Below are positions 29,675 to 33,478 of a DNA stretch of 64,000 nucleotides, piece after piece. A model generated the notes under the pieces. It had not been told where the DNA came from. It made no database searches and saw only the letters and a list, made by a program, of their open reading frames with translations. This stretch comes from Rhodospirillaceae bacterium. Its GTDB lineage: Bacteria; Pseudomonadota; Alphaproteobacteria; Rhodospirillales; JABHCV01. The position numbers were made by a program, and so were the translations under genes. The stretch covers positions 1-64,000 of the forward strand of contig JABJHA010000037.1 in assembly GCA_018662005.1 (NCBI GenBank), in the 5' to 3' direction. How positions within the stretch are numbered: position 1 is the stretch's first letter; the number at the start of each line of letters is the position of its first letter.

Positions 29675-30257
29675 CCTTGAAGGGGTGCTGGTTCCTGAAA
29701 TCTGGATCAATTTTGCCGAACGAACCGGCATTGATGAATTGCGGGCAACCACCCGCGATATACCTGATTATGACCAGTTGATGGCCCAGCGGCTGGCCAT
29801 TCTTGACCAGCACGATTTGGGGATTGAGGACATTCAGAAAGTTATCGCCACCATGGCCCCTATGGAGGGTGCCCTTGAATTCGTTGAAAGCCTGAGAACC
29901 CGCTATCAGGTTGTCATTTTGTCAGACACATTTTACGAATTTGCCAAACCTCTGATGGCGCAGCTCAACTGGCCTACGTTGTTTTGCCATCGCCTGCATG
30001 TAGAAAATGCCAGAATATCTGGTTACACATTACGTATGGCCGACCATAAACGGGCCGCTGTAATGGCCTTTAAGACATTGAATTTCAAGGTTTTTGCTGC
30101 CGGTGATTCCTACAACGACACAGCCATGCTGGAAGAAGCCGAACTGGGGGTCCTGTTTCAGGCACCCGACAATGTCATTGCCGAATTCCCTCACCTGCCC
30201 TTAAGTCACAGCTATCAGGAATTGAGTGAAATTTTTGAAAAGGCCAAAGCCGGTTAA
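29655..30257 (+). CDS. thrH: ThrH: phosphoserine phosphatase / homoserine phosphotransferase
   Basis: ThrH is a HAD-superfamily enzyme known in Pseudomonas to dephosphorylate phosphoserine and transfer the phosphate to homoserine. The 200-residue product matches the family closely: VCLDLEGVLVPEIWI with the nucleophile Asp, TTRDIPDYDQLM, EFVESLRTRYQVVILSDTFYEF, and AAGDSYNDTAML for the metal site. The start is the GTG at 29655, with GGGGGA about eight bases upstream, which gives the family's normal N-terminus. It overlaps the glycosylase gene by 20 bases and the convergent LuxR-type gene by four. Confidence 0.94.
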   Translation: MEIVCLDLEGVLVPEIWINFAERTGIDELRATTRDIPDYDQLMAQRLAILDQHDLGIEDIQKVIATMAPMEGALEFVESLRTRYQVVILSDTFYEFAKPLMAQLNWPTLFCHRLHVENARISGYTLRMADHKRAAVMAFKTLNFKVFAAGDSYNDTAMLEEAELGVLFQAPDNVIAEFPHLPLSHSYQELSEIFEKAKAG

Positions 30258-30820
30258 GAATTGGCACCCTCTACCTGAGGAGGCAAGGCATTCATGATAT
30301 CACTCAACGACTCGCCTGACAGCAGGTCTTCGACAAAATAGGCGACCAGTTCATTGCGGCCTTTAACCTCTGCCTTCCTGTAAATGGCGCTGCACTGGCT
30401 TTTGATGGTGCCCGTTTTGGTCTCTCTGATATCGGCGATTTCCTGTATCGATAAGCCTTTGATCAGCAGCAAGGCGACCTCGCGTTCCGAAACAGAAAGT
30501 TTCCAGTCTGTAAACTTGCCGCCAAGGATGAACAGGAACTCGCCCGAGGCGATACCAAGGAGTGATCGGAATTGACGGTTTTCAATAATGAGGCGCCAAA
30601 AATCGGCCCCGAGGACGATCAGCGTCAAACCAAGAAAAAAAACCGCCGAAGCTTCAATAATGCCGTGATATTCACTGTATATATCAAAATCAAAATACAG
30701 AGACTCGGAGACGACATCGAGAATTAACAGAATTTCACAAACCAGTAATACGATTAATGAGCCCCCAAGGAACTTAATTCGCCAGGAGTTGCGAAAATTA
30801 TGAAGGCTGGCATTGGCCAT
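30254..30820 (-). CDS. Membrane-bound LuxR-type transcriptional regulator
   Basis: This 188-residue protein has two membrane helices (about 17-37 and 52-72) with a short extracytoplasmic loop rich in Tyr, Asp and Ser. A cytoplasmic LuxR helix-turn-helix follows at about 108-165 (LSVSEREVALLLIKGLSIQEIADIRETKTGTIKSQCSAIYRKA). No receiver or ligand-binding domain is present, so any signal is likely sensed through the membrane part or the loop. It is followed by about 540 bases without a gene and then, on the other strand, the duplicated cytochrome, which makes it a candidate regulator of that gene. That link is positional only. Confidence 0.85.
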   Translation of the reverse strand: MANASLHNFRNSWRIKFLGGSLIVLLVCEILLILDVVSESLYFDFDIYSEYHGIIEASAVFFLGLTLIVLGADFWRLIIENRQFRSLLGIASGEFLFILGGKFTDWKLSVSEREVALLLIKGLSIQEIADIRETKTGTIKSQCSAIYRKAEVKGRNELVAYFVEDLLSGESLSDIMNALPPQVEGANS

Positions 30821-31356: not shown

Positions 31357-32265
31357 ATGAAGAAGTTTCCACTTAAGGGTCTCGTTGTGGGGGCCATCAT
31401 GGCGACCATGGCCACAGCCTGCGTTAGCAGCAACAAAATGGTTACAGAAAGCACCCCTGGTGCGATCAAAGCAGTTGATCTTATCGGTGCCTGGGTTGAT
31501 TCCGGTGCGCCAAAGACCGGCTTTTCCTACACAGACATGAGCGGCAATTCCACGTTGGGTGATTTTACCACTGACATCCTGCCGCTCTTTACCGCGGAAG
31601 GTATTTGGGGCGAAGGTACCGCCTCTTGCACTTCCTGTCATTTTGACAACAGCGAAGAATCCTATCACGAAATGGATCTTTCCTCGTACGAAGGCATCAT
31701 GAAGGGCGGCGACGTTCTTTCCCAGCCTCCGGGAGTTCCGCTTTTCGGTCAGTCTCAAATCGGCGCTGCCGATTATGACTGGGGTCATTCAAAGATGAGG
31801 GCACGTCTGCGTAACAACCGTATGCCCCCGGGCGTTGAATTTGACATCACCGAAGAAAATCGTGACGGCCCGACCGGTACCGAGGTTGGCATGATCAAGG
31901 CATGGGTTGCTGCTGGCGCCAAGAACGACAGCACCTTTAGCAGCAAAATCCTTCCGCTGTTCACCATGGATGGTGCATGGGGCGAAGGCACAGATGCTTG
32001 CACCTCTTGCCACTTCGACAACAGCGAAGAGTCCTATCACGAAATGGATCTTTCCTCGTACGAAGGCATCATGAAGGGCGGCGACGTTCTTTCCCAGCCT
32101 CCGGGAGTTCCGCTTTTCGGTCAGTCAAGTATTGGTGCTACCGACTATGACTGGGGTCATTCTAAGATGAAGGAGCGTCTGCGTAACAACCGTATGCCTC
32201 CTAGCATCGAGTTTGACATTACCGAAGAAAACCGTGACGGCCCGATTGTTGCTCACGGGATGTAG
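31357..32265 (+). CDS. Di-heme cytochrome c lipoprotein with internal tandem duplication
   Basis: This 302-residue exported lipoprotein has a signal peptide with lipobox ATAC at Cys22. It carries two heme c sites, CTSCH at residues 91-95 and 215-219, each followed by a conserved block and by RLRNNRMPP, whose Met (156, 280) is the likely sixth heme ligand. The two modules are about 124 residues apart and nearly identical. A tail motif AWVxxGA, which normally ends such a domain, appears before the first heme (about 45-51) and between the hemes (about 182-188) but not after the second. It probably carries electrons in the periplasm. A terminator follows directly, then a PQQ-type propeller gene. 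Confidence 0.85.
   Translation: MKKFPLKGLVVGAIMATMATACVSSNKMVTESTPGAIKAVDLIGAWVDSGAPKTGFSYTDMSGNSTLGDFTTDILPLFTAEGIWGEGTASCTSCHFDNSEESYHEMDLSSYEGIMKGGDVLSQPPGVPLFGQSQIGAADYDWGHSKMRARLRNNRMPPGVEFDITEENRDGPTGTEVGMIKAWVAAGAKNDSTFSSKILPLFTMDGAWGEGTDACTSCHFDNSEESYHEMDLSSYEGIMKGGDVLSQPPGVPLFGQSSIGATDYDWGHSKMKERLRNNRMPPSIEFDITEENRDGPIVAHGM
31645..31754 (+). repeat. Copy 1 of near-identical internal DNA repeat (cytochrome gene)
   Basis: These 110 bases match 32017-32126 with a single mismatch (31659 versus 32031). The last 95 bases (31660-31754 and 32032-32126) are identical, including third codon positions. The offset is 372 bases, or 124 codons, so the frame is kept. Confidence 0.95.
32017..32126 (+). 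repeat. Copy 2 of near-identical internal DNA repeat (cytochrome gene)
   Basis: This is the partner of 31645-31754. It encodes the segment just after the second CTSCH, from DNSEESYHEMDLSSYEG through PPGVPLFGQS. Sequence outside the block is still similar in protein but differs at many silent sites. Confidence 0.95.
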
Positions 32266-32290
32266 TCACAAGACACTTCGTTAAGTTATA

Positions 32291-32324
32291 AAGGCGGGAG
32301 GTTTTTCCTCCCGCCTTTTTTTTT
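32291..32324 (+). terminator. Rho-independent terminator after the cytochrome gene
   Basis: AAGGCGGGAGG (32291-32301) pairs perfectly with CCTCCCGCCTT (32307-32317) around a five-T loop, followed by an unbroken T tract to 32324. This is the strongest terminator in the window. It ends only eleven bases before the ATG of the next gene on the same strand. Confidence 0.93.
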
Positions 32325-32335
32325 GGATATTGACG

Positions 32336-33478
32336 ATGACCCGACCCCGTAAAATATTTGCCTTTTTGATCCTTACCAGTGCCTTGGCCTGGGTGGGATT
32401 GAGCACCATCTCGAAAGCAGGCAGTGACTCCATCAAACTGGCTTGGCGTGTTGATACAGGCAAGGCGATCAACCAGCCTCCCCTGGTCATTGGCAACCAT
32501 GTGCTGGTCATACCCAAGGGCTTACCCCTGGTCGCCTACGACAAATCCAATGGTGCCGAGAAATGGCAATACGCACCGGCCGAAGGACTTTGGAGCCGCG
32601 CCATGGGGACTGACGGCAAGCGGGTTTTTGTCTGCCTGAAAGGTGGTGATCTGGCTGCCCTTGATGGCAAAGACGGACGTTTGTTGTGGAGGATCAAGCT
32701 CGGCATCAATTGCCAACGCCAACCACATATTTCTGAGGGCAGCCTTTATGTATCAACCGCGCTGGTCGGTCAGGGCATCACCACAGAAACCTACAGCGGT
32801 GCCAAGCTGTTTTCCATCAATCCGGTCGACGGCAAATTAAATTGGGTCTTCACCAGCGAAAATTATCTTCTGCAAACCGCCTTCCAAAAGGCCGGAACCG
32901 TCTATGTTGGTGGAAGTTACATTAATCCAAAAATTGTGGTGGATGAAGGTGGCCCGGCGCGTTTTTACGCCCTGAACAGCCAGACGGGACAGCAAAAATG
33001 GATTTATGAGTCCGATGACGGCTTGCCAAAAGCCTCGTACGCGACCAAAAACCGGCTCGTTTTTGTCGGCTATCAGGATTACATGAACGGATTGGACACC
33101 ACCACTGGCAAATTGGTCTGGCGTCGTGATACCGGCAACTGGGTTCCCTCGGTCATTGGTCAGGGAGACGTGCTCTACTATGGTTCGGCTAACACCAAGG
33201 TCCATGCCTGGAACACCAAAGATGGCAATTCCCGCTGGGAATTTAACATTCCGGGCGGAAACTTCAATTATCTGCTGATCAAACCGGTCATTGCAGACGC
33301 AAAAATGTACTTCTTGAGTCAACGCGGCACGGTCTTTGCCCTTGATCTTGAAGATGGTACGGAGCTTTGGTCTCAACCGACAGGCATGGACTCTCGCACT
33401 GGCCCCAGTATTAGCGGCGACACCCTGTTTATGGGTGACTCATCGGGCACAGTCTACGCTTACAAAATTTTGAAGTAG
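32336..33478 (+). CDS. PQQ-type beta-propeller repeat protein, exported
   Basis: This is a 380-residue secreted protein with a signal peptide (core IFAFLILTSALAWVGL, cleavage near SKAG). The mature part consists of about seven repeated beta-propeller blades with the usual PQQ/BamB-like signature of Ala-Leu-Asp/Asn-x-x-(D/T)G-x-x-x-W (for example LAALDGKDGRLLWRI, FALDLEDGTELWSQ, YALNSQTGQQKWIYE). No catalytic Asp/Glu or paired Cys of true quinoprotein dehydrogenases is obvious, so it may be a structural or binding propeller. The ATG at 32336 has a GGA eight bases upstream, within the tail of the preceding terminator. Its position suggests a partnership with the cytochrome. Confidence 0.85.
   Translation: MTRPRKIFAFLILTSALAWVGLSTISKAGSDSIKLAWRVDTGKAINQPPLVIGNHVLVIPKGLPLVAYDKSNGAEKWQYAPAEGLWSRAMGTDGKRVFVCLKGGDLAALDGKDGRLLWRIKLGINCQRQPHISEGSLYVSTALVGQGITTETYSGAKLFSINPVDGKLNWVFTSENYLLQTAFQKAGTVYVGGSYINPKIVVDEGGPARFYALNSQTGQQKWIYESDDGLPKASYATKNRLVFVGYQDYMNGLDTTTGKLVWRRDTGNWVPSVIGQGDVLYYGSANTKVHAWNTKDGNSRWEFNIPGGNFNYLLIKPVIADAKMYFLSQRGTVFALDLEDGTELWSQPTGMDSRTGPSISGDTLFMGDSSGTVYAYKILK

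Follow-up and report, generated by a model that had tools for sequence, protein, structure and literature searches.

The window, as we call the whole analysed stretch of 64,000 nucleotides from a Rhodospirillaceae bacterium, carries on its + strand (31357-32265) a gene for a di-heme c-type cytochrome of 302 amino acids built of two modules. Taken as a whole, the evidence makes it probable that this protein is a permuted member of the FoxE family, encoded by an ancient two-module gene that has undergone recurrent conversion, and that it serves electron intake. Judged by homology, the protein is a relative of FoxE over both hemes: phmmer aligned residues 74-295, which span both, with FoxE (E 3.7e-28), and FoxE was the only match of the sequence search at E <= 1. 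Likewise, FoxE chains were the only PDB matches of Foldseek at E <= 0.001 (best E 2.5e-13), with a poor superposition (TM 0.35-0.38 by query; rmsd about 7; TM 0.37 and rmsd 7.2 for the match at E 2.5e-13). VIA gave Z 13.6 to 5mab_C (rmsd 6.5 over 195) and Z 7.1 to 5mvo_A (rmsd 6.9). The AlphaFold2 model is of moderate quality (pLDDT 75.2, pTM 0.66, 17 sequences), and the other four models reached 33-57. Pfam and NCBIfam yielded little beyond matches to the heme motif. The likeness to the PSCyt1 (Planctomycete-type cytochrome c) and Geobacter CxxCH families consists of weak matches around CxxCH, which do not exceed the curated cut-offs and barely extend beyond the heme motif. Within its own genome the cytochrome gene was the sole match at E <= 0.01.

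All features of the gene and its downstream region are given for the + strand. The protein starts with a signal peptide (31357-31422) ending in ...ATAC (Cys22), which we take to be a lipobox-like motif. Lipobox-like signal-peptide ends were also seen in Anaerolineae relatives. The mature FoxE-type di-heme cytochrome c would reside in the periplasm, probably held there by a lipid anchor. A conserved RM(P) methionine stands after the CTSCH motif of heme 1 (residues 91-95, 31627-31641) and another after that of heme 2 (residues 215-219, 31999-32013), namely Met156 (31822-31824) and Met280 (32194-32196), both in NNRMPP and both likely axial ligands. The cysteines and histidines of the two motifs (C91, C94, H95; C215, C218, H219) as well as both methionines are invariant in a 17-row alignment (A1). 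According to passages of PMC10654088, heme I of FoxE receives its Met from the second half of the protein and heme II from the first (model compared with 5MAB). If this ligand order applies, Met156 would bind heme 2 and Met280 heme 1, so that the axial Met of each heme would be supplied by the opposite half and the two half-units would complete each other. The tail motif AWVDSGA precedes heme 1 (tail 0, AVDLIGAWVDSGAP, 31471-31512, predicted helix of residues 39-48) and AWVAAGA sits between the hemes (tail 1, VGMIKAWVAAGA, 31885-31920, predicted helix of residues 176-185), while no AWVxxGA-like tail follows heme 2 in the window protein, just as the first-pass annotation had described it.

Canonical FoxE, by which we mean FoxE of Rhodobacter ferrooxidans SW2 (PDB 5MAB, 5MVO) and proteins of the same order, shares with the window type two c-type hemes in homologous heme modules, the RMP-type Met after each heme and the W-x-x-x-GA tails. 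However, canonical FoxE is arranged as heme-tail-heme-tail, whereas the window type reads tail-heme(-Met)-tail-heme(-Met) and lacks a tail after heme 2. Moreover, the two modules of canonical FoxE are differentiated, whereas those of the window type are near-identical and number up to four in Anaerolineae. A Cys at position +21 of heme 1 together with a C-terminal Cys was present in 24/24 canonical proteins (L010-L030, L066, L067 and L069; L070 was dropped because of a masked stretch, and six further canonical-type matches were unread), and neither residue occurred in the window-type set (0/18; L037 is cut at the C-terminus). By their spacings these residues fit the disulfide Cys58-Cys236 that, as passages of PMC10654088 describe, holds the turned-back C-terminus of canonical FoxE. 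The canonical topology, with a C-terminal tail after module 2 and this Cys pair, is accordingly absent from the window type. Several window-type proteins have a different pair of cysteines, located after Met 1 and ahead of tail 1. In profile comparisons tail 0 matched canonical tail 1 best (E 2.3e-5, probability 76%), followed by tail 2 (E 0.0017) and the canonical N-terminus (E 0.42), and both window-type heme modules were closest to canonical heme module 2. The window-type modules formed one clade in the protein tree (support 100) and canonical module 1 another (support 100); canonical module 2 formed no clade unless the window-type modules were included. We therefore read the window type, as far as sequences can tell, as FoxE in a circular-permutation-like form, whose N-terminal tail would serve the heme 1 pocket as the C-terminal tail does in FoxE. 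The repeat unit of tail plus heme that had been proposed for this gene is borne out by the profile and positional evidence, while the idea that the array had been cut from a longer chain of domains is better replaced by that of a permuted FoxE-type pair.

In the predicted structure, residues 37-38, which immediately precede the helix of tail 0, and residues 297-298 (32245-32250) are strands without another partner (DSSP string), which suggests by elimination that the chain ends meet and would close the protein to a ring. A second model (L047) is compatible with ring closure and does not decide between the readings. Among 199 relatives, 37 genomes had a match at E <= 1e-5; by identity 10 of them carry the window type and 27 the canonical type, and none of the 37 carries both. 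For the canonical-type genomes both modules were read in 23, with G012 partly masked and G009, G156 and G164 unread.

Directly downstream of the cytochrome gene lies a FoxY-like gene for a PQQ-type beta-propeller (32336-33478; PF13360, E 3.1e-40; ATG at 32336, with the ORF tool starting at TTG 32330). A propeller homologue adjoins the cytochrome gene in 22/25 loci, and the contigs of the other three (L037, L049, L053) end inside the gene; among the canonical genes L010-L030 a propeller gene was found within 1.5 kb of 7/21. Two canonical-type loci, L021 and L028 (C-terminus GAWCK), have nearby ORFs that presumably resemble NapC-type and other c-type cytochromes. In four Chloroflexota loci (L047, L050, L051, L052) the cytochrome gene has two consecutive propeller paralogues as neighbours. 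Passages of PMC10654088 describe foxEYZ as encoding the di-heme FoxE, the PQQ-containing, eight-bladed propeller FoxY and the transporter FoxZ; they also mention foxEY-like pairs in Rhodospirillaceae and that FoxZ is usually missing in the other listed taxa. The downstream gene resembles FoxY, as described there, in being a PQQ_2/BamB-like propeller, but its identity to the propellers that accompany canonical genes is only 23-25%, and a strong hairpin parts it from the cytochrome gene. By eye, no FoxZ-like ORF was recognised just downstream in the window. The hairpin (32290-32318) resembles an intrinsic terminator, with a 12-pair stem and a T run (-23.7 kcal/mol, z -5.87). Similar hairpins were found in seven other proteobacterial loci (L031-L036, L048) and a weaker one in L040, and L041, L042 and L044 showed none or a poor one. 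Its position suggests that more cytochrome than propeller may be made. Upstream of the cytochrome gene, a LuxR-type regulator gene lies on the other strand (30254-30820), with the same placement in L031. At L040 (3415-4818, on a contig of Candidatus Thioglobus perditus) exact direct repeats of 118 and 56 nt with a spacing of 1229 were observed upstream.

Regarding function, the most likely role by analogy is periplasmic electron intake, perhaps from Fe(II), in non-phototrophic lithoautotrophs, and Fe(II) oxidation is plausible as a candidate activity. Electrons from Fe(II) or another donor would enter the cytochrome and pass, with the propeller protein taking part, to the respiratory chain. 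In the window genome and five relatives with the gene, a COX1-family match was present in 6/6 and RuBisCO in 5/6, and a match to the reaction centre in 0/6; the window genome itself has three COX1-family matches, RuBisCO and SoxB. Counted by hand and with kinship uncontrolled, RuBisCO (E <= 1e-78) was found in 34/37 bearers of the FoxE family, including 8/10 of the window type, versus 47/162 other genomes, and SoxB over its cut-off in 32/37 versus 54/162. The search's own tally for RuBisCO was 109/199 relatives at E <= 0.001. Both genes thus associate equally plainly with the FoxE family, a pattern that fits non-phototrophic lithoautotrophs and does not favour iron over sulfur.

It is against this background that a serious alternative has to be weighed, namely that the protein is no iron oxidase and instead carries electrons in sulfur or general respiratory metabolism; we give it somewhat less than an even chance. 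The SoxB association agrees with it, as do the two heme modules, which are alike and thus unlike the differentiated canonical ones, and the cytochrome oxidase genes of Chloroflexota, where COX2, COX1 and COX3 are close neighbours of the cytochrome gene in 5/11 loci (L037, L038, L039, L045, L047) and SCO1 in three. These Chloroflexota genes were clustered by BLAST and named by Pfam only for L039, an Anaerolineae homologue. L046 and L049, with about 5 kb of upstream sequence, showed no COX2, COX1 or COX3 there, and the other four Chloroflexota loci hold little or no upstream sequence. However, the only solved relative is FoxE, which the passages of PMC10654088 describe with FoxY beside it, and the enrichment of RuBisCO fits any lithotrophic donor and therefore does not discriminate.

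Turning to the repeat itself, the CTSCH motifs start at residues 91 and 215, i.e. 124 codons or 372 bases apart, and the modules share a block of 110 bases (31645-31754 and 32017-32126) with one mismatch (31659 versus 32031). It is made up of 14 identical bases (31645-31658), the mismatch and 95 unbroken identical bases (31660-31754 versus 32032-32126), as had been reported for this gene before, and the surrounding 300-nt repeat is 85% identical. At codons 11-41 past the heme Cys, 0/29 degenerate codons for the same residue differed between the modules, compared with 20/48 outside the block (Fisher p = 2.1e-5, with boundaries picked post hoc), and the length of the identical run gave a permutation p of 0.00045. 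A fixed cut between core and flank was not significant for the window alone (core 6/39, flank 12/36, p = 0.10); the signal is therefore a sharp block rather than the whole core.

Comparison with L031, a relative presumably of the same genus, allowed us to address the direction of the copying. The flanks of the two genes pair mostly by position. At codons 12-41, where the window modules 1 and 2 are identical, they matched L031 module 2 alone at 7 codons, L031 module 1 alone at 2 and neither at 1, and there was no codon in this stretch at which window module 1 matched L031 module 1 against window module 2. Most likely, module 2 (putative donor, 32017-32126) overwrote module 1 (putative recipient, 31645-31754) in the window lineage after the split from L031; alternatively, the conversion may be older and L031 module 1 may have changed later. 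On these comparisons the block is a real and recent conversion inside an old two-module gene, and the recent copying or conversion of the block proposed by the first-pass annotation is thus upheld.

An artefact of short-read metagenome assembly would also produce identical blocks. The window genome is a draft of 53 contigs and the 25 named records are all MAGs. Moreover, 8/25 contigs (L037, L048-L050, L052-L055) end within the 900-nt gene versus an expectation of about 2.7 (P 0.002), which suggests that the repeat interferes with assembly, and L039 and L045 have exact tracts of 750 nt that agree in length and place. Long identical tracts may therefore be partly due to assembly collapse, which may also have raised the tract lengths of L039, L045 and L092. 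For the window block, however, this explanation is improbable: common short-read lengths exceed its 95 nt and the contig runs through it. Furthermore, the silent differences to L031 follow a structured pattern, and the two modules of L032 group as sisters despite a wide divergence at silent sites of the core (0.46 of same-residue codons).

The two-module layout is older than the block. The order tail-heme-tail-heme is common to homologues in Alphaproteobacteria, Gammaproteobacteria, SAR324 and Chloroflexota. We compared 18 genes (the window, L008, L031-L037 and L039-L047), leaving out L038 because of a frame break, L048-L055 as fragmentary, interrupted by N runs or broken in frame, L002-L007 and L009, which presumably lie on the same contigs as named loci, and the later added L092-L095. 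Lineage labels were assigned by hand, and L042 (titled Deltaproteobacteria) and L043 (Proteobacteria) were grouped with L044 (SAR324). With these labels, the best matches in other lineages fell at the same position for 32/36 tails and 30/36 module ends, whereas those of the heme cores fell 19 times at the same and 16 times at the other position, with 1 tie. In 18/18 genes the similarity of the two cores exceeded the mean between lineages. A tree with modules 1 and 2 as reciprocally monophyletic groups was rejected (delta lnL 302, AU p 1e-17). Core and flank offered too little sequence for clear nucleotide trees, and the conclusions were drawn from the protein tree together with the AU and positional tests instead. 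Since tails and ends keep a position-specific identity while cores do not and resemble their own twin, the comparisons point to an ancient two-module gene homogenised by recurrent, patchy intragenic conversion. The position-specific tails in several phyla speak against the recent duplication that had been assumed for this gene.

A separate recent duplication of a single module in each lineage would account for the finding that in 7/18 genes module 1 groups with module 2 of its own gene at a support of 99-100. Nevertheless, it is very unlikely, as it does not explain why tails and ends, unlike cores, find their best match at the same position elsewhere in a layout that is the same from Alphaproteobacteria to Chloroflexota. 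Module number varies among the relatives. Four-module genes exist in L039 and L045, each with an exact tract of 750 nt, and in L092, where the tract measures 509 nt; at least three modules are present in L037, and the gene of L038 contains a frame break. By contrast, 13/13 complete proteobacterial and SAR324-type genes that were read have two modules and give no sign of expansion or contraction by slippage.

The preferred reading, an old gene with recurrent conversion, was examined for each gene by its silent sites. The run test gave p < 0.05 (uncorrected) in 4/18 comparisons of modules 1 and 2, namely the window, L037, L041 (0.016) and L039 (0.047). Silent differences were lower in the core of L033 (p 0.005), L045 (0.001) and L037 (below 1e-4), and lower in the flank of L040 (0.0004) and marginally of L032; the idea that conversion always falls in the core is contradicted by the latter two. 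In L041-L044, 0.52-0.68 of the same-residue core codons differ between the modules, and no low-divergence segment was detected between the modules of these four genes. As a control, the core was the less diverged part in 12/26 between-species comparisons; silent sites of the heme core are thus under no intrinsic conservation. It is also very unlikely that purifying selection on the protein and codon bias produced the near-identity without gene conversion. High conservation of the core and the shared residues encoded by both window copies over the block would agree with it, but L041-L044 keep the protein while their silent sites diverge, the control shows the core less diverged in just those 12 comparisons, the window block stands apart from its surroundings in silent sites, and all 18 genes have cores that resemble their own twin. 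The first-pass annotation had regarded identical modules and blocks in distant genera as a sign of constraint. The two modules do recur there; however, the sequence of the block differs from lineage to lineage, and in some lineages its silent sites are saturated, so that constraint alone fails to explain the block.

When 398 genomes sampled evenly across the phylum were searched with a profile and the first 5-6 candidates per genome scored, only the window's own gene was found at E <= 1e-20; in the class of G199 (L045, titled Anaerolineae) 6/298 genomes had a match at E <= 1e-40, scored in the same way. With this depth of scoring, either search may have missed bearers. A FoxE-like gene in Rhodospirillaceae is not new in itself, as passages of PMC10654088 and of PMC8446621, the latter on foxE in North Pond Rhodospirillaceae, report such genes. 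Chloroflexota MAGs with iron-oxidation marker genes from a set including FoxEYZ are mentioned in a passage of PMC12501874, which leaves the gene unspecified. Among the matches listed from the open-licence PMC literature, the titles and excerpts contain no description of this permuted FoxE variant.

A more far-reaching picture is tentative and on balance doubtful: a sister branch of FoxE in at least Proteobacteria, SAR324 and Chloroflexota, made from a re-cut closed pair whose symmetry is kept by recurrent conversion, would support Fe(II)-dependent lithoautotrophy in the dark, with a four-heme relay near COX in Anaerolineae. In excerpts of PMC7005843 (FeGenie) foxEYZ serves as a marker for Fe(II) oxidation, and according to a passage of PMC12501874 FoxE is frequently taken to indicate light-dependent iron oxidation. 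If our reading is true, a permuted branch in genomes with 0/6 matches to a reaction centre would change how FoxE marker matches are to be read. In addition, the gene would be a natural case of concerted evolution within one redox protein, in which the cores are kept alike and the tails diverge by position. Conversion would thereby keep the two hemes near-identical, and two hemes of near-equal potential are predicted.
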